Translations under genes and position numbers: made by a program
From: Phycisphaerae bacterium
GTDB lineage: Bacteria > Planctomycetota > Phycisphaerae > Phycisphaerales > SM1A02
Assembly (NCBI GenBank): GCA_016873275.1
Contig: VGXO01000014.1
Span: 1 to 55,904 of the forward strand
Reading direction: 5' to 3'
Length of the DNA: 55,904 bases
Notes under the pieces: model-generated
The model's database searches: none
Seen by the model: only the letters and a program-made list of their open reading frames with translations
What the model was told of the DNA's origin: nothing
Shown here: positions 1 to 55,904 of the stretch, one piece after another
Layout: each line of letters begins with the position of its first letter
How positions within the stretch are numbered: the stretch's first letter is position 1

Positions 1-115
1 GCCGGCGGAGATGCGCGAGGGGAGTGTCAGCGACGACGGCGCGAGCTGACGAGGCCTGCCGCGCCCAGGAGCGCGAGCGCGCCGGGGGCGGGGACAACGC
101 CAACGCTCAAGCCGC
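1..115 (-). repeat. PEP-CTERM 3'-end module, copy 1
   Basis: This is the first of several near-copies of a stretch that spans the last codons of a PEP-CTERM gene and the bases just after its stop. It shares the run GGCGCGAGC, the AGGCCTGCCGCGCC block and the downstream ATGCGCGAGG block with the copies near 2542 and 3783; the copy near 1481 is more diverged. It is cut by the window edge, so whether a terminator hairpin follows cannot be seen. Confidence 0.7.
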
Positions 116-1070
116 CACCCGTCGCCGCGTAGATCGTGCTGCCGATCGCGTAGACGCCGGTGACGGAGTCGCTCCCGAGCCCGTTGGCAGTGGTGTAGTT
201 GGTCCAGTTCGTACCGCCGTTCGAGGAGACGCTCAGGCCGCCATCCGTCGCCGCGTAGATCGTGCTGCCGATCGCGTAGACGCCGAGGACGTAGTCGTTC
301 CCGAGCCCGCTGTTGGCAATGGTGCGGTTGTTCCAGGTGCTACCGCCGTCCGAGGAGACGCTCAGGCCGTTACTGGTCGCCGCATAAATCGTGCTGCCGC
401 TCGCGTAGACGCCGGAGACGATGTTGCTCCCGAGCCCGTTGGTAGTGGTGCGGTTGGTCCAGCTCGTACCGCCGTTCGAGGAGACGCTCAAGCCGCCGCC
501 AAACGTCGCCGCGTAGATCGTGCTGCCGATCGCGTAGACGCCGTTGACGAAGTCGCTCCCGAGCCCGCTGTTGGCAGTGGTGCGGTTGTTCCAGGTGCTG
601 CCGCCGTCCGAGGAGACGCTCAAGCCGCCGCCCGTCGCCGCGTAGATCGTGCTGCCGCTCGCGTAGACGCCGGAGACGATGTTGCTCCCGAGCCCGTTGG
701 TAGTGGTGCGGTTGGTCCAGCTCGTACCGCCGTTCGAGGAGACGCTCAGGCCGTTACTGGTCGCCGCGTAGATCGTGCTGCCGCTCGCGTAGACGCCGCG
801 GACGTTGTTGCTCCCGAGCCCGTTGGTAGCGGTGCGGTTGTTCCAGGTGCTGCCGCCGTCCGAGGAGACGCTCAAGCCGCCAAACGTCGCCGCGTAGATC
901 GTGCTGCCGCTCGCGTAGACGCCGCGGACGACGTTGTTCCCGAGCCCGTTGGTAGTGGTGTAGTTGGTGAAGCTGTAGGACGCCGTCGCGGGGGTCGCGA
1001 GGACGCCCGTGACGATCACTGCTGTTGCGATGGAGCCCACGGCGGACTTCTTCAATGTATTGCTCTGCAT
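27..1070 (-). CDS. exported seven-bladed beta-propeller (Asp-box repeat) protein with PEP-CTERM tag
   Basis: A 347-residue exported protein. The start is the ATG at 1070, which has AAGGAG upstream and is followed by a signal peptide (KK, a hydrophobic stretch, then ATPATA before SYSF). The rest is seven tandem units of about 37 residues, each reading roughly GLGSN-VSGVYASGSTIYAAT-GLSVSS-GG-W-NRT. The SSDGGSTW segment is an Asp-box as in BNR/sialidase-type propellers. Seven units fit a seven-bladed propeller; the seventh lacks its last strand, and the N-terminal YSFTNYTT strand could close the ring. The protein ends VVPAPGA, a hydrophobic helix and RRRR, a Phycisphaerales-type PEP-CTERM signal, so it is probably processed by an exosortase and anchored or released at the surface. 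The ligand is unknown. The units alternate between SSDGGSTWNN and SSNGGTSWTN types, so the array probably grew by two-unit duplication. No exosortase gene is in the window. Confidence 0.88.
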   Translation of the reverse strand: MQSNTLKKSAVGSIATAVIVTGVLATPATASYSFTNYTTTNGLGNNVVRGVYASGSTIYAATFGGLSVSSDGGSTWNNRTATNGLGSNNVRGVYASGSTIYAATSNGLSVSSNGGTSWTNRTTTNGLGSNIVSGVYASGSTIYAATGGGLSVSSDGGSTWNNRTTANSGLGSDFVNGVYAIGSTIYAATFGGGLSVSSNGGTSWTNRTTTNGLGSNIVSGVYASGSTIYAATSNGLSVSSDGGSTWNNRTIANSGLGNDYVLGVYAIGSTIYAATDGGLSVSSNGGTNWTNYTTANGLGSDSVTGVYAIGSTIYAATGGGLSVGVVPAPGALALLGAAGLVSSRRRR

Positions 1071-2577: not shown

Positions 2578-2645
2578 TCAGCGACGACGGCGCGAGCCGG
2601 CGAGGCCTGCCGCGCCCAGGAGCGCGAGCGCGCCGGGGGCGGGAA
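2542..2645 (-). repeat. PEP-CTERM 3'-end module, copy 3
   Basis: The block from GCCGGCCGAGGCCGGC through the stop codon and into the last 20 or so codons of the 2578-3240 gene closely matches the segment at 1-115 and, less closely, 1481-1583 and 3783-3885. Conservation runs across the stop codon into non-coding sequence, so it reflects DNA duplication rather than protein constraint alone. Confidence 0.75.
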
Positions 2646-3240
2646 TCGTGCCGGCCGAGATGGCCTGACCGGCGGTGCTCTCGTAGGCGTAGTCGACGAC
2701 GGTGAAACTCGACGAGTCGAGCGAACCCATCTGAACCTGAACCCAGCCGTAGCGGATGTTCGCGCCCACGCCGAAACTGATCCCGACATACCCGCCGCCC
2801 GACTGGAATTCGGCGTGAGGGTCTTCGGCTCCCGGGTACTTCTTGAGAATCAACCTGTCCAGCGTATTCGTGTAAAACCCGGCTGTCGAACCGATGGGGC
2901 TTGGGGGGGCGAAATTTTTTGCATACAGGGGATGAAGAGGGCCTTTTTGAGCAATCCCTTGACTCCCGATGACGCTGGTGTTGTTGCCCACTGCCGCGAA
3001 TCCGGTGTTCGGTTGCCCCCCTCCGACGATGACGAAGTCCCAGGCGTAGTTCGTGCCTTCGAGATTGATCGCCAGGTTGTACCAAGACGACTGCTCCTGA
3101 GTCACGACGGCGTTGATCGGTCCGCCGTAGACGATCGCGGCGTTGGCCGAGGTGGCCCCGGCCAAGGACACGGCAAGCAGGGCCCCGGCGGTGAGCGAGG
3201 GGCAACGGACAACGAGCTGGTGGATCGAGAGTTGCAACAT
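2578..3240 (-). CDS. exported PEP-CTERM protein, paralogue of the 1517-2137 product
   Basis: A 220-residue exported protein. The start is the ATG at 3240; AGGAG lies upstream inside a small palindrome, TTTAGG-CT-CCTAAA (3245-3258), which might partly hide the ribosome-binding site. The signal peptide ends GATSANA. The mature domain is Gly/Ser/Asn-rich and probably beta-sandwich, with YAWDFVIVGG and ISFGVGANIRYGW shared with the neighbouring paralogue. The end is IPAPGA, a hydrophobic helix and SRRRR, the PEP-CTERM-type tag. No enzymatic motif is visible. It is one of a cluster of four (three intact, one remnant) on the same strand. Confidence 0.85.
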   Translation of the reverse strand: MLQLSIHQLVVRCPSLTAGALLAVSLAGATSANAAIVYGGPINAVVTQEQSSWYNLAINLEGTNYAWDFVIVGGGQPNTGFAAVGNNTSVIGSQGIAQKGPLHPLYAKNFAPPSPIGSTAGFYTNTLDRLILKKYPGAEDPHAEFQSGGGYVGISFGVGANIRYGWVQVQMGSLDSSSFTVVDYAYESTAGQAISAGTIPAPGALALLGAAGLAGSRRRR

Positions 3241-3386: not shown

Positions 3387-3885
3387 CCCGTTTCCAGCGT
3401 TCCACGCGGGGTGCGGTGGCCGGCTCGCGCAGCGCATGCCGAGCAATTGCCCCCCGAATCCGCGGTCATTACCCGAGAGACACAAACGCGCCGCGAACGT
3501 TCACCAGAGACTTCAGACGGCAGAAACGTCTCGCGATGCCCCGAGAGACACCCCGGCGAGACCTCCGCGACGGTCGGCCAGGCACTCGGCAACGCCGCTC
3601 CGTTGGCCCACCGCGAGGGACCTCTGCGCACGCAACCCGTGATTTCAGATTTGGGTCGCAAAACGGCTACGCACGCCGCAAAACGCGAACGCCTGATTTC
3701 AGTTTGGGGCCGTGTGGCCGGGGCGTTCACTCCGGACTGCTGCTCGCACCGCCCGAAGGCGACACGGCGAGAAGTGTGGTCGTCGGCCGAAGCCGGCGGG
3801 GATGCGCGAAGTGAGGGTCAGCGGCGGCGGCGCGAGCTGACCAGGCCTGCCGCGCCTTGGAGCGCGACCGCGCCGGGTGCTGGAA
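3387..3885 (-). repeat. intergenic plus 3'-end module, copy 4
   Basis: This fills most of the 577 bp between the 2578-3240 gene and the gene remnant at 3818. It repeats the copy-2 blocks in order: CCCGTTTCCAGCGTTCCACG, TTTCAGATTTGGGTCGCAAA, the GC hairpin (here interrupted by a second TGATTTCAG, 3688-3727), GGACTGCTGCTCG, then the 3' end of a PEP-CTERM gene. It also carries an extra segment of roughly 3470-3640 (CGAGACCTCCGCGACGGTCG) that is missing from copy 2 but present at 9645-9760. Confidence 0.8.
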
Positions 3886-3949
3886 CAACGCCGATGCTCA
3901 CGCCGCCGAGTGTCCCCGCGTAGATCGTGCCGCCAATCGCGCAAACTCC
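3818..3949 (-). pseudogene. 3' remnant of a second propeller PEP-CTERM gene
   Basis: Read in the minus-strand frame that ends at the TGA at 3818, the 43 codons give [16 protein letters not shown], then [11 protein letters not shown], then a hydrophobic helix and SSRRRR. This matches the last blade and sorting tag of the product encoded at 27-1070 almost residue for residue. Upstream of about 3949 the match stops, with no start codon, signal peptide or other blades. The remnant is directly joined to a DUF72 gene fragment in a different frame, so it is a recombination scar and not a functional gene. Confidence 0.85.
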
Positions 3950-4359
3950 TCTCGGGTTGCTGGTTGGTAATAGGTCTTATCGATTTCAAACGAACGAAAG
4001 AGTGGATGCTGCGCGTACGCAGCAAGCCCATCACGCGCGAGTTGCGATTCGCGGCACGCGTCGCGATAGACCAGTCCGCGCAAACCTGGAAAGCTCTAAC
4101 TCGAAGTTCTAAGATGCAACGCCCTCGGCAGCGCTCGAGCGACTTCCAACAAGGCCGCGCCCGGTTCGCACGCCTTCGTTGGATCTGCAGTGACACGTGC
4201 AGACTTCGGTCGCGAGGCACTCGGCAATCGTGAGGGCGGCAACTCAAAGGCATCGCCGAAGAGCGAGGGCGAATTGTCGTGGTACGCGTTCAAGTTGCAA
4301 GCCTTGCGTGGGGCAGCGTTGGTTATCGCTGCAAGATTGTCCCAAGTCGATTTTCGCAA
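3931..4359 (-). pseudogene. broken DUF72 (YecE-like) gene
   Basis: The minus-strand frame from 4359 gives SLFGDAFELPP, then ARALPRALHLRTSS, an in-frame TAG, then [14 protein letters not shown], a [16 protein letters not shown] block and [21 protein letters not shown]. From memory of the DUF72 family, the stop sits where TSSWSFPGW is expected, so TGG has become TAG. The frame runs on past the stop without a shift, then ends where it meets the PEP-CTERM remnant near 3931-3949; the C-terminal two thirds of a normal DUF72 protein (about 250-300 residues) are absent. The fragment is unlikely to be functional. The family's biochemical role is not established. Confidence 0.75.
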
Positions 4360-4667
4360 AATCTCGTTTCATCGTGACAGGTTTCCGTCATGCTTTGCGC
4401 TTCTTCAGGTGGACACTCTCTCTCCGCCTGACAGGGGCGGAACCCGTCGGACAACGGGCAGACAGGATCTGCGGAACCCGCAGAAACACACAGGACGAAC
4501 GGCTCTCAGGCAGGCCTGGACAACCTGCCTGAGCCGTCGTTCCGCTTGTGATCGTTGCGCGATCCAAAGCTAAACCGGCAAGCAACTTAATTTCGAGATT
4601 GCGCCAGAAGTCGTGACAGGTCGCGTCACGCATTTGCGCTGCCTAGCGGTGCACGAAGGTACACCCC
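4360..4667. other. intergenic region with a row of stem-loops
   Basis: No coding frame here looks real. The right half holds four consecutive stem-loops at 4424-4541, annotated separately. The remaining 126 bp before the ATG at 4668 contain only an AAGG ribosome-binding site (about 4655) that I can identify. Confidence 0.6.
4424..4541 (+). ncRNA. candidate structured RNA: four consecutive stem-loops
   Basis: Four hairpins follow one another with 2-10 nt gaps: CCGCC/GGCGG (4424-4440), CCCGT/ACGGG with loop CGGACA (4443-4458), TCTGCGG/CCGCAGA (4468-4484), and a long one at 4495-4541 built on CAGGCAGG/CCTGCCTG and extended to about 13 pairs with a two-base bulge. On the plus strand GGA occurs repeatedly, including in two loops, which is reminiscent of CsrA/RsmA-binding RNAs. 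The last hairpin lacks a T tract. No gene upstream on either strand explains a terminator here. It could be a small RNA, the leader of the 4668 gene, or a palindromic repeat; the strand is a guess. Confidence 0.3.
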
Positions 4668-5151: not shown

Positions 5152-5244
5152 TTCAAGACTTGCACTTCAAGACTTGCACTTCAAGACTTGCACTTCAAGA
5201 CTTGCACTTCAAGACTTGCACTTCAAGACTTGCACTTCAAGACT
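5152..5244. repeat. 14-bp tandem repeat, 6.6 copies
   Basis: TTCAAGACTTGCAC is repeated six times perfectly and then a further nine bases, with no mismatch. It begins 28 bp after the stop of the 4668 gene and runs into the end of the kinase gene, whose TGA (5237-5239) lies inside the last partial copy. The perfect identity suggests recent slippage expansion and possible copy-number variation. Confidence 0.95.
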
Positions 5245-6331
5245 GGTCCACGGGGGCGCTTGCGCCCCTTTCGTTCATCGCGCGAGTGAGCGCGCGAATG
5301 AACGCTTCCATATCGGGTTGCCGCGCAGCAGGGCGCTTCGAAAGCGCCTTCAAAATCACTTTTGCCAATGCTGGTGTCGCGCCGCCCATTTCTGGCGTTC
5401 GCTGCATCGCTTGCGGCTTTGTGCACACGATGGTGGAAATCGTCTCGGCAAAGGTAAGACCATCGAGTTCGTATGGTGCCGTTCCTTCAACCAATTCGTA
5501 GAGCAACACGGCAAGTTGATAGATGTCCGTGCGGCCGTCGACATCGCGTGTGCGACCAGCCGCCTGCTCGGGGCTCATGTAGGTGAGCGTGCCGACTATT
5601 TCTCCAGTGAGTGTGTGGTGATGAACACTCACTGCACCACCAGTAGAAATGCGGGCCGCACCAAAGTCCAGTAACCGCGCGCGGCCATTCTCGCCAACAA
5701 GAATGTTTGATGGTTTGATATCGCGGTGCACAACTCCGTGTGCGTGCGCAAATGCAAGCGCCTCTGCGACCGGAAGCAGAAGTCGCACAATGCCGCGCGC
5801 GTCGAGGTCGTGAATCTCGGCATACGTGCGCACATCGAGGCCATCGATGAAATCCATCACGAGGTATGCGTAGCGATCTTTGAGCGTTCCAGCTTCGCGC
5901 AGATTCACAAGTGCTGCGTGCGAAATCGAACTCATGATGCGCCATTCACGACGCACGCGATCAACGCCACCTTGACCGAGGCCATGCAGATCAATCGTCT
6001 TGATGGCGACGAACTCGCCGGAGGCGTCCTCTCTGCACAACTCTACTTGGCCCGATCCGCCTTCGCCGAGTTCGCGCACGGACGTGTAGCCTTGCGGGAG
6101 CGGAATGCGGCGAGCGGTTTGTGAATAATCTGCGGTGAGTTCGAACGCGCTCTCGCCAAACGACTCTGGCTCTGTATCGTCAACGGCAAGAAGACGAATT
6201 ACGAGTTGTTCAAGCTCAGCGTTACCGCCGCAGGCGTCTTCGACAAAAACCTTCCGCTCGTCGCGTTTGAGTTCAAGTGCGCACTGAAAGACGGCTCGCG
6301 CGCGTCGAATGGTGGTCGCGCTCGCATTCAC
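5237..6331 (-). CDS. Hanks-type Ser/Thr protein kinase, cytoplasmic
   Basis: A 364-residue kinase. The start is GTG at 6331, overlapping the sigma factor stop by four bases (GTGA), so translation is coupled. Residues 1-60 resemble the helical leader seen before many planctomycete kinase domains (ALELKRDERKVFVEDACGG). The kinase domain shows the Gly loop LGEGGSGQV near 88-96, the ATP-anchoring Lys111 in VAIKTI, catalytic HRDIKPSN at 202-209, DFG at 222-224 and SPEQA in the activation/P+1 region, so it should be active. It stops soon after the kinase domain, with no membrane segment or TPR/WD repeats, unlike many planctomycete kinases, and its stop codon is in the tandem repeat. It may therefore be a shortened gene. 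The paired sigma factor is a likely target or partner. Confidence 0.9.
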   Translation of the reverse strand: MNASATTIRRARAVFQCALELKRDERKVFVEDACGGNAELEQLVIRLLAVDDTEPESFGESAFELTADYSQTARRIPLPQGYTSVRELGEGGSGQVELCREDASGEFVAIKTIDLHGLGQGGVDRVRREWRIMSSISHAALVNLREAGTLKDRYAYLVMDFIDGLDVRTYAEIHDLDARGIVRLLLPVAEALAFAHAHGVVHRDIKPSNILVGENGRARLLDFGAARISTGGAVSVHHHTLTGEIVGTLTYMSPEQAAGRTRDVDGRTDIYQLAVLLYELVEGTAPYELDGLTFAETISTIVCTKPQAMQRTPEMGGATPALAKVILKALSKRPAARQPDMEAFIRALTRAMNERGASAPVDQS

Positions 6332-6939
6332 TGATATTCCTTAGCGGTCGAGATAGTGGTGCCATCATCGGAAAGTTGCGCCGCAAGAAACGCACGGCCG
6401 AATCGCCAGTCGCGCGAAACGGTTGAGAGCGAAAGCCCCATCGCCTCAGCGCATTCCGCAACAGTCAGGCCGCCGAACAAGCGGGCTTCAACCACCCGCG
6501 CGACGCGTGCATCTACCGCCTCAAGCGCGTTCAGAACATCATCGATTTCAATGAGATCAACTTCATTCCCCGTGGATGTAGAAAGAAACTCAAGCAAGTT
6601 TCCATCAGCGGCGGCGGCGCCGCGTCCACGCTTCTTCGATGAGCGACGCCGTACGTGGTCCACAAGCACCGAACGCATGGTCGTGGCCGTGTACGCCAGC
6701 AAGTGCGCTTCCGACGCGAAGTGCTTCGCGCAATCTAGCGCAGCCAAGCGCAAAAATGCTTCGTTGACGATGGCGGTTGGCTGAAGGGTGTGTGAAGCGC
6801 GCTCATGGCGCATCAATGCGGCAGCCATGGACCGCAACTGTGGATAGATTAAGCCAAAGCAATCGGACATCATTCGCATTGGACTCTGCGACGAGCCGAC
6901 AGCCTCGCTTGCGAGGCGTTCATCTTTCTGGAATGACAT
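6328..6939 (-). CDS. ECF-type RNA polymerase sigma factor (kinase-linked group)
   Basis: A 203-residue sigma factor starting at the ATG at 6939. Region 2 is recognisable around LIYPQLRSMAAALMRHERASHTLQPTAIVNEAFLRL and AYTATTMRSVLVDHVRRR, with the KKRG linker after it. Region 4 is ALEAVDARVARVVEARLFGGLTVAECAEAMGLSLSTVSRDWRFGRAFL, a typical helix-turn-helix. The TLQPTAIVNEA and DHVRRR motifs fit the subgroup usually annotated TIGR02999, which in planctomycetes and acidobacteria is commonly encoded next to a Ser/Thr kinase, as here. No anti-sigma gene is present, so control by the kinase is the expected arrangement (inference). Confidence 0.9.
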   Translation of the reverse strand: MSFQKDERLASEAVGSSQSPMRMMSDCFGLIYPQLRSMAAALMRHERASHTLQPTAIVNEAFLRLAALDCAKHFASEAHLLAYTATTMRSVLVDHVRRRSSKKRGRGAAAADGNLLEFLSTSTGNEVDLIEIDDVLNALEAVDARVARVVEARLFGGLTVAECAEAMGLSLSTVSRDWRFGRAFLAAQLSDDGTTISTAKEYQ

Positions 6940-7250
6940 CGATACACTCAGGGGTGGACACTAAGTCACGTTTCAGAGCAGGATTCGGGACGGGGAATCC
7001 GGCAAAGAAGAGGAAACAACGACTCCCAACGGCGCCAACGATGCAACCAATCTAGTTCAATGCAAATCAGTTCCCATGAAACGACCTATTTCGGACGATT
7101 TGTCCGTGACTGTGCTGTTTATCGATCGCGAAAATGTCCACGAACCTCTATGAGTCAGTGCGGACCGTCTGGTCTTCCCCCTGATTCCTGAGTCAAACTT
7201 GCTGCGAGTTATCTGGGACACTTCGGCCTCCAAGCTGGTTGGAGGTTCGC

Positions 7251-7516
7251 GTGAAGAAGAAGCGTTTCACGGAAGAGCAGATCGCCTACGCCCTGGCGCA
7301 GGAGTCGATGGCCAGACGATCGCGGAGATCTGCCGACGGCTCGGCGTGTCCGAGCAGACGTTCTATCGGTGGAAGAAGAAGTTCGGTGCGATGGGCGTGG
7401 CGGAGGTGCGTCGGCTGAAGCAGCTCGAGGACGAGAATGCCAAGCTGAAGCGGCTGGTCGCTGACCTGAGCCTCGATAAGGCGATCCTGCAGGACGTGCT
7501 CCGAAAAAAAGCCTGA
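7251..7516 (+). pseudogene. IS3 transposase orfA, frameshifted
   Basis: GTG at 7251 follows GGAGG and opens KKKRFTEEQIAYALAQES, the usual orfA start. The family then continues with a GQTIAEICRRLGVSEQTFYRWKKKFG-like helix-turn-helix, which is found here in the next frame, so a one-base-type indel lies near 7300-7312. After it the frame runs intact through the leucine-rich coiled coil (RRLKQLEDENAKLKRLVADL) to a stop at 7514-7516, immediately after the AAAAAAA slippery run. The N-terminal and C-terminal halves can therefore not be made as one chain without recoding. Confidence 0.8.
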
Positions 7517-8375
7517 CTCCCGGCCAGCGCCGCGGGCTGGTCGGGTATGCGCAGGATGCCTACCGGGTAACGGAGCGTCGGGCATGTCGCGTGCTTTGCG
7601 CTTCGCGCGCGACGATTCGTTACGTGTCAGTGAAGCCAGGGCAGGAGGATCTTCGGATGCGGATCAAGACTTCAATATCGGGGAGATCGCCGCAGTGCGC
7701 CCGAGCTGGGGCTCGCCGCGGATCCACGTGCTGCTGCGACGCGAGGGCTGGCTGGTCAACCACAAGCGCACGGAGCGGCTCTATCGCATGGAAGGCCTGA
7801 ATCTCGGGCGAAGTCGCCCTCGGCGTCGAAAGGCCGTGGTGACGCGCGGGCCGTCGGTCGCAGCGACCCGCAAGGACGAGCGCTGGAGCATGCGCTTCTG
7901 CCACGACCAGCTGCATGACGGCCGCAGGCTCCGCGTGCTGACCGTGGTCGACCAGTTCACGCGCGAGGCGCTGGCGACCGAGGCCCGGGGATCGTTCTCC
8001 GCGTACGACGTGATCGACGTGCTCAACAGGCTGTCGAGGTCTCATCGGAAGCCGGCCGTGATCCAGGTGGACAACGGCACGGAGTTCGCATCGCGCGCGC
8101 TGGATGCGTGGGCCTATCGAGAGGATGTGAGGCTCGACTTCAGCCGTCCCGGGAAGCCGACGGACAACGCGCACATCGAGTCGTTCAACGCGCGGCTGCG
8201 CGCGGAGTGCCTGAACGCGCACGTCTTCGAATCGCTCGAAGACGTCGAGGAAACCCTGACTTCGTGGCGGAGCGATTACCATGCCGTGCGTCCACACAGC
8301 GCCCTGGGCATGCTGACCCCGAAGATTGAATCATGGGAGTTCGCTGAACTCGGTCAGAGGAATGCAGGCGGTTGA
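7510..8375 (+). pseudogene. IS3 transposase orfB (rve/DDE), disrupted and catalytically defective
   Basis: In the -1 frame after the A7 run the product reads SLTPGQRRGLVGYAQDAYRV and so on to LRMRIK. A 14-base insertion (7669-7682) then shifts the frame; on its far side the family sequence resumes as EIAAVRPSWGSPRIHVLLRREGW. The integrase core follows. The position expected to be WSMDF reads WSMRF (Asp to Arg), removing the first catalytic acid, while VDNGTEF and the Glu in HIESFNARLR remain. The C-terminal YHAVRPHSALG motif is present. The gene is dead at two levels. Confidence 0.82.
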
Positions 8376-55458: not shown

Positions 55459-55904
55459 AGCGCGGGGGCTGGATCGTCGCGCGGGCGCTGGCGCGGAGAT
55501 CGCGGGGTCGCGGCGGGCAGCACCGCGCATGTGGCGCGGGGGAGAGCCGGAGCCATCGCGCGTGACACGTGTACCTCGCTCATGAGACGCAGACCACGGT
55601 GGCGAGACGCGGACGGCGAACCTGAGATGCGGACCGCGACCGTGCGATGTGGACCGTGCGATGTGGACCGCGGGCGTGCAGTGTGGACCGCGGACGTGCA
55701 ATGTGGACCGCGGGCGTGCAATGTGGACCGCGGACGTGCAATGTGGACCGCGGACGTGCAATGTGGACCGCGGGCGTGCAGTGTGGACCGCGGACGTGCA
55801 ATGTGGACCGCGGACGTGCAATGTGGACCGCGGGCGTGCAATGTGGACCGCGGGCGTCCCGCCCGCTCCGGTCGATGCACGAGTGGCGACCTTCGCGGGC
55901 AAGC
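55459..55904. other. gene-free window end with tandem array
   Basis: The first 120 bp have no recognisable feature. From about 55581 to 55857 the region is the 20-bp tandem array annotated separately; the last 47 bp (starting CCCGCCCGCTCC) are unique. Long open frames here, including one of 547 codons on the minus strand, arise because a 20-bp unit keeps all frames open. Confidence 0.7.
55581..55857. repeat. 20-bp tandem array, about 13 units
   Basis: Ten units in register (55661-55857) read RTGTGGACCGCGGRCGTGCA, with nine almost identical and the last diverged at its end. Variation is limited mainly to A/G at position 1 and G/A at position 14. To the left, at 55581-55660, three older degenerate units of 20 bp (starting GAGACGCAGACC, GAGACGCGGACG and GAGATGCGGACC) and one short 14-bp unit lead in. 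CCGCGG is the palindromic core. Confidence 0.93.

Follow-up and report, generated by a model that had tools for sequence, protein, structure and literature searches.

Propellers built of near-identical blades have been described in several lineages. Highly repetitive beta-propellers, 2ymu among them, have blades far above 60% identity that were recently amplified and a blade number typical of their lineage, and passages of the survey by Pereira and Lupas (2022) report one amplification from a two-bladed fragment (PMC9218822). The WD40 domains of the fungal HNWD sensors (HET-D, HET-E and HET-R) consist of near-identical repeats that evolve in concert, with exchange within and between loci, and in which few codons per repeat, described as four, are under diversifying selection at the interaction face (PMC2873952, PMC12222747). 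Highly repetitive WD40 proteins also combine conserved blades with diverse predicted hot-spot sites (Hu et al., 2017; PMC5587647). Here we describe a gene with likenesses to all of these in a stretch of 55,904 nucleotides (the window; contig C14 of genome G000, positions 1-55904). Unlike most highly repetitive beta-propellers, it belongs to the Asp-box lineage, which makes up about 5% of the survey's set according to its passages (PMC9218822), carries an exosortase-type tag and bears a sign of two-blade copying. Whereas the HNWD repeats, usually 11 in number, belong to intracellular proteins in which a WD40 domain is joined to NACHT and a HET effector (PMC12222747, PMC2873952), the window protein is bacterial, carries a signal peptide and is predicted to consist of one seven-bladed Asp-box propeller domain; a Pfam scan of the 347-aa protein returned no NACHT, HET or WD40 family, and it is thus not an HNWD member, although by analogy it may work like an HNWD sensor. 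The proteins of Hu et al. differ in being of the WD40 lineage, and the passages of that paper contain no secreted Asp-box case (PMC5587647). We propose that the product is a surface propeller for recognition or adhesion, in which recombination keeps the blades alike and a putative binding face diversifies, a reading we hold to be somewhat likelier right than wrong. In the open literature searched, no work joined PEP-CTERM, beta-propeller and Planctomycet, and for Asp-box, propeller and hypervariable together the matches listed concern the NEU3 sialidase and the Trypanosoma cruzi genome.

The gene (27-1070, minus strand; 347 aa, stop included) lies at the start of the contig, 26 bp from its first base, with its ATG at 1070, its stop codon at 27-29 and AAGGAG six bases upstream of the ATG; it is identified by its open reading frame, Pfam PSII_BNR and AlphaFold2. 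All its parts are on the minus strand and follow one another as a signal peptide (MQSNTLKKSAVGSIATAVIVTGVLATPATAS, 978-1070, read by eye, with pLDDT below 50 for residues 1-28), an N-terminal strand with its loop leading into blade 1 (residues 32-49, 924-977, unit-HMM columns 26-42), six full units, the inner half of a seventh (96-158, unit-HMM columns 1-19, without an Asp-box) and a PEP-CTERM-like sorting tag (VPAPGALALLGAAGLVSSRRRR, 30-95). The full units alternate between a D-type Asp-box in units 1 (798-923, 126 bp), 3 (543-671, 129 bp) and 5 (285-413, 129 bp) and an N-type Asp-box in units 2 (672-797, 126 bp), 4 (414-542, 129 bp) and 6 (159-284, 126 bp). Seven inner-strand units are in register, at spacings of 42, 42, 43, 43, 43 and 42 aa (126, 126, 129, 129, 129 and 126 bp), and tandem repeat scores (TRF) of 1376 at period 258 and 1175 at period 126 are far beyond chance. 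Among units 1 to 6, DNA identity ranges from 82.5 to 94.4% (mean 88.3%), and amino acid identity has a mean and a median of 79% over 15 pairs, above the 60% median limit for a highly repetitive beta-propeller. An earlier note, made from the letters of this DNA, had described seven nearly alike units of about 37 residues (111-114 bp), regularly alternating in type, preceded by an N-terminal strand and running directly into the tag. The likeness of the units, their alternation (SSDGGSTWNN in units 1, 3 and 5 against SSNGGT(S/N)WTN in units 2, 4 and 6), the strand (SFTNYTTTNGLG) and the direct passage of the last blade into the tag all hold; the unit is in fact 42-43 aa long, and of the seven units in register only six are complete, the seventh being an inner half.

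AlphaFold2, run on nine aligned rows, namely the window protein with three close relatives, of which two are partial, and five more distant ones at 28-33% identity, returned a seven-bladed propeller with a pLDDT of 85.9 and a pTM of 0.81, and so bears out by prediction the expectation of a closed ring in which the N-terminal strand completes blade 7. The 28 predicted strands (7 x 4) comprise an N-terminal one at residues 33-37, then six sets of four and a closing set of three; from this topology we infer that the N-terminal strand is placed to pair within the last blade, and that it would thereby complete blade 7. The C-terminal tag was modelled as a low-confidence helix, and a model from the single sequence without an alignment (pTM 0.55) was set aside. 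VIA-align ranked first the seven-bladed designer protein 7big (Z 33.6, rmsd 2.0, 266 aligned, model residues 32-327), followed by the highly repetitive natural propeller 2ymu (Z 33.0, rmsd 2.1, 273 aligned). All six complete units carry an Asp-box (SSDGGSTW, SSNGGTSW or SSNGGTNW), three with Asp and three with Asn. The consensus, (S/t)-X-(D/n)-X-G-X-(T/s)-(W/f/y) between strands 3 and 4, is described as allowing either residue (PMC2716378), and the N of SSNGGTNW falls at its weakly conserved T/s place. Together, these data point to a window protein that is an Asp-box beta-propeller by predicted fold.

Within that fold, Pfam assigned PSII_BNR (YCF48) at 30.5 bits against a cut-off of 27 and DUF6242 at 32 against 29, with Sortilin-Vps10 below its Pfam cut-off, and Foldseek gave the sensor BT4663 (4a2l) as best match, with YCF48 from rank 14. 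The YCF48 propellers share the seven-bladed Asp-box fold and the Pfam match over cut-off with the window protein, and an NCBIfam glycosylhydrolase model matched at an E value of 3e-19, so that an assembly factor of the YCF48 kind or a glycoside hydrolase might be considered. We regard either function as very improbable: the curated Ycf48 model reached 24.5 against an equivalog cut-off of 326 and the glycosylhydrolase model 69.3 against 175, and near-identical blades with variable face residues would be unlike one conserved active or binding site. Unlike those of the window protein, the blades of YCF48 are diverged. The PADLOC anti-phage models gave no match to the propeller at an E value of 0.001.

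PEP-CTERM proteins are defined by a Pro-Glu-Pro motif, a hydrophobic stretch and a basic end in the passages defining them (PMC1569441). Like substrates of the PEP-CTERM/exosortase system, the window protein has a signal peptide, a C-terminal motif, a hydrophobic stretch and an arginine cluster, and exosortases are encoded in the genome (three PF09721 matches over cut-off); unlike them, it has PAPG in place of Pro-Glu-Pro. TIGR02595 matched the tag at 20.5 bits against a cut-off of 16 in the genome scan, falling to 14.8, below cut-off, in the scan of the whole protein, and PF07589 remained below its cut-off (13.5 against 20.7). In all, the genome holds 23 PEP-CTERM-type tag matches at E <= 0.1. 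The Por-secretion tail (PF18962) was without a match in the genome.

Within the taxonomic family, 5 of 181 genomes match the window protein at E <= 1e-12: all three seen from one genus (G000, G001 and G002), one of another genus (G027) and one (G204) in which the match lies at a contig edge. In wider samples at 1e-20, 4 genomes matched among 400 from the order and 4 among 392 from the phylum, the window's genome counted in each, and a search at an E value of 0.001 matched 33 of 61 genomes, in most of them, from rows read by eye, over the tag end only. G027 has several paralogues, two of them in tandem on contig C67. All genomes compared are draft assemblies, and blades were counted in genes complete on one contig, which leaves aside four genes cut by contig ends (G027:C67a, G027:C15, G002:C175 and G002:C224) and the G204 match. 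Seven blades were found in the window gene, G027:C67b, G027:C23 and G001:C87, where the unit model missed the N-terminal strand, and five in G002:C115. Blade number among these relatives, a comparison proposed in the earlier note, therefore mostly follows ring closure and can change: seven is favoured even at 46-67% identity (G001 and C23), yet it is not fixed. The five-bladed G002:C115, whose longest exact repeat is 71 bp, may be real or collapsed in assembly.

A short-read assembly artefact behind the blade number or order is an explanation we consider improbable. Contig ends cut the four excluded genes inside their repeats, the window gene lies close to such an end, and G027:C15 contains an exact repeat of 126 bp; for the fungal HNWD counterpart, moreover, long reads are reported to succeed where Illumina assemblies do not (PMC12222747). 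On the other hand, four of the five complete genes, some of them quite different in sequence, agree on seven blades, and the hypervariable columns described below are independent of blade order. The longest exact repeat of the window gene itself is 103 bp, which is shorter than common read lengths, although the reads behind this assembly may differ.

The insertion LGEFLGSGG occurs in unit 5 of C67b and in unit 4 of C15, both paralogues of G027. A 305-kb contig from a viral collection (L108, 3001-3933) encodes a relative with 37% identity over query residues 6-291; two such viral-contig relatives, at 35-37% identity, are not close, and a phage origin of the propeller was rejected. In other Asp-box arrays (nine open reading frames from 11 chosen loci), mean unit identity by a crude ungapped count was 0.21-0.36, with single pairs up to 0.74, and these arrays were set aside.

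The 103-bp repeat bears on how the array was formed. Its first copy (646-748, minus strand) runs from the outer half of unit 2 into the inner half of unit 3 and its second (388-490, minus strand) from the outer half of unit 4 into the inner half of unit 5, at a spacing of 258 bp. Across the array, identity in the window gene is in excess at lag 2 for whole units (8 of 720 orders) and for outer halves (16 of 720), where lag 2 is the best lag, but not for inner halves (440 of 720; best at lag 3, 144 of 720), these tests of several lags and several halves being uncorrected for multiple testing. The picture is the same with the end halves included (48 of 5,040 for outer halves with the N-terminal strand). 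The lag-2 signal was absent from the three other genes tested (G027:C67b, G027:C15 and G027:C23), so that it is seen in one gene of four, and G027:C23 has a lag-1 signal instead (14 of 720). The claim that the array expanded recently by two-unit duplications thus stands in part, supported by the exact repeat and by the lag-2 excess in whole units and outer halves but not by the inner halves or the three other genes; from the repeat and its spacing, at least one recent copying event in the window gene probably had two-blade spacing. The window gene would thus add a candidate two-blade copying event to the one amplification of a two-bladed fragment reported in passages of the survey (PMC9218822). 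Inner and outer halves also fail the four-gamete test, columns 22 (G/N) and 31 (D/N) appearing in all four combinations within six units, and therefore recombination inside blades, or recurrent mutation, is needed too.

Over 236 bp of 5' flank and signal peptide, the window gene is 92.8% identical to G027:C67b, and at the 3' end identity to C67b is 84.5% over 84 bp, with the closest sequences being G027:C15 (95.5% over 110 bp) and C67a (94.5% over 110 bp); the window gene as a whole thus looks mosaic. When units of the window gene are compared with those at the same positions in C67b, their likeness does not exceed that of random orders (679 of 720 do as well or better), and across five gene pairs 679, 630, 136, 370 and 57 of 720 orders equal the real one, so that positional identity is clearly kept in none, the nearest to it being G027:C67b against C23 (57 of 720). 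The unit set used in these comparisons omits the end halves as well as units that the HMM matched in part, two of the six units of G001 among them. Mean unit identity is 0.883 within the window gene, 0.874-0.878 to three of the four G027 genes and 0.752 to C23; window unit 4, for example, has as its nearest neighbour in the pair list unit 1 of C67b, at five differences. Because no positional identity is clearly kept between genes, the blades seem to be shuffled among the paralogues, and a blade pool common to them would seem to explain these identities. The G002 blades, at 0.884 among themselves and 0.78 to the window gene, appear to have been homogenised apart from those of the window.

Against this uniform background, blade variation is concentrated at three positions, which the earlier note missed. 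In blade 1 these are residues 47 and 49, the outer residues of an x-V-x pair (924-932, minus strand; recurring at 798-806, 672-680, 543-551, 414-422, 285-293 and 159-167), and residue 63 in the strand 2-3 loop (882-884, minus strand; recurring at 756-758, 630-632, 498-500, 372-374, 243-245 and 117-119). In 27 close units (six each from the window gene, C67b and C15, four each from C67a and G002:C115, and one from G002:C175), entropy reaches 2.73 bits at column 21, 3.06 at column 55 and 2.74 at column 57, the next highest column having 1.36, and the residues found there include F, Y, N, S, T, R, L, I, D, G, A and one W. To lessen circularity, the columns were picked on the 16 G027 units only and then scored elsewhere: the triple so picked was the most variable in the window gene (1 of 11,480), with 3 of 11,480 triples as variable in G002, and was not the top one in the diverged genes (172 of 11,480 as variable in G027:C23 and 764 of 11,480 in G001). 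In the window gene, differences amount to 0.711 at first and second positions of the three codons, 0.097 at first and second positions elsewhere and 0.060 at third positions elsewhere. The ratio of pN in the three codons to pS of the whole unit is 6.1 in the window gene, 9.0 in C67b, 11.2 in C67a, 9.2 in C15, 5.2 in C115 and 1.5 in C23, by pairwise counting on units that recombine.

One alternative is a young propeller of the ordinary kind, amplified not long ago from a single blade or a pair, in which these positions are free surface residues drifting without selection; we deem it unlikely, though likelier than the other alternatives. According to the survey's passages, the emergence of near-identical blades is an ongoing process in most of the major propeller families (PMC9218822), and the strand 2-3 loop is described as variable in Asp-box propellers at large (PMC2716378). 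Outside the three columns, pN over pS is 0.84 in the window gene, 0.99 in C15 and 0.77 in C115, three of the five close genes, and 0.58 in C23, and pS may itself be depressed by codon bias, C occupying 67% of third positions in the window gene. Such bias would inflate the ratios, which may thus represent an upper view, as is hinted by values above 1 outside the three columns in the other two close genes (1.58 in C67b and 3.35 in C67a). The sevenfold excess of the three codons over other first and second positions is independent of pS, and alone it also fits relaxed constraint. Free drift, however, should not surpass the neutral rate, as the three codons do relative to third positions elsewhere and in the pN/pS of 5-11 of the five close genes, which seem to be non-independent tests with units exchanged among them, and two of the three positions lie at the start of the innermost strand, outside the free loop. 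Among the least diverged units, the four pairs with at most seven differences, a limit set after viewing the list, have 9 of their 20 differences in these 3 of 42 codons, and two further pairs with eight differences have none there.

Targeted mutation of NNC codons by a diversity-generating retroelement (DGR) could produce a comparable concentration, and of the explanations weighed here we give it the least credence. All 26 codons read at column 55 end in C, with positions 1 and 2 varying (third-position variation of 0, against 0.27 at column 57 and 0.52 at column 21), and the window genome encodes one reverse transcriptase (RVT_1, 70.4 bits; contig C18, L103 1279-2637) containing the stretch LPIGNLTSQ, which we take to suggest a DGR enzyme; no curated NCBIfam model matched this protein at cut-off. 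Yet columns 57 and 21 include codons that do not end in C, C dominates third positions throughout the gene, and G002 and G027, without an RVT_1 match at an E value of 0.001, have the same hypervariable columns. A 261-bp blade query found no template-like copy beyond the gene, a relic described below and short matches, and none on C18, among the 40 of 134 candidates scored; with RVT_1 matched in one of four genomes and unmatched in three, a DGR target is largely refuted.

The location of the variable positions speaks for the proposed diversification of a binding face. By the predicted strands, column 21 is in the loop of strands 2-3, column 55 precedes the innermost strand and column 57 is within its start. 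Asp-boxes, in the strand 3-4 loop, are described as sitting on the side of the propeller away from the active sites of Asp-box glycosidases (PMC2716378); the three variable positions should therefore be on the active-site face, opposite the Asp-boxes, a placement taken from predicted strands and a published fingerprint. That fingerprint is the one given for the WD40 hot spots R1-2, R1 and D-1, in which R1 stands second in (V,L,I)-R1-R2-(V,L,I) and D-1 is tied to a stretch of small residues before an Asp (passages of PMC3419727). Of the 27 units, 24 have the first motif at columns 56-57-1-2, and all 27 have small residues at each of columns 11-13, before the D-1 place. By analogy across lineages, the hypervariable positions would be equivalent to the top-face hot spots R1-2, R1 and D-1.

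From sequence and model, we suggest the following course of events. A secreted, exosortase-sorted surface protein would fold as a closed seven-bladed Asp-box propeller whose first strand snaps into the last blade. Recombination between near-identical blades, within the gene and among paralogues, would move blades and part-blades and keep the frame uniform, a step proposed because of the exact repeats, the failed four-gamete test and the loss of positional identity. On this uniform frame three residues per blade would stay divergent, one in the strand 2-3 loop and two flanking the valine of the innermost strand, and the resulting 21 residues (7 x 3) most likely form a putative binding face whose specificity would shift by mutation and blade shuffling. 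The cell surface would thereby display a renewable recognition or adhesion site.

More tentatively, and with a confidence that stays short of even, this ring may represent a bacterial surface recognition repertoire of propeller blades, its frame kept uniform by blade exchange among paralogues and three top-face hot spots per blade driven apart, convergent with the fungal HNWD immune sensors in an extracellular protein of another propeller lineage. As regards HNWD-like evolution, the excess of amino-acid changes at the three columns was found in the five close genes, with the face being a predicted one and pS possibly depressed by codon bias. If this is true, bacteria share the trick of fungal non-self receptors, namely identical scaffold blades with few hypervariable face residues and shuffling, in an outward-facing protein. 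It would also offer a small, symmetric binding scaffold of natural origin whose variable positions are known, and would allow a clean look at whether ring closure fixes blade number while recombination churns blades.

The surroundings of the gene contain further tagged proteins and repeats. Two more tagged proteins are encoded upstream on the same strand (1517-2137 and 2578-3240); by eye, a homologue of the first was also seen ahead of the propeller in G027:C23. A relic of a second propeller gene, consisting of the last half-blade and tag (3821-3964, minus strand), is 73% identical to residues 300-347; in the three minus-strand frames of 3600-4400, read by eye, nothing propeller-like lies upstream of it. 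Genes for a protein kinase (5237-6331) and for an ECF sigma factor (6328-6939) follow farther upstream on the same strand. At the DNA level, the tagged genes resemble one another at their 3' ends (63-84%), in two sets (1-158, 2552-2709 and 3792-3949; 1407-1582, 2468-2643 and 3708-3883). The repeats cover the tag and the sequence downstream of it, in which a GC-rich hairpin is visible by eye, as if the two were copied as a module. Two open reading frames at 7199-8375 resemble, by eye, an IS3-type transposase. A perfect 14-bp repeat of 6.6 copies (5152-5244) overlaps the 3' end of the kinase gene, and a 20-bp repeat of 10 copies with 93% matches occupies 55655-55857, at the window's other end.
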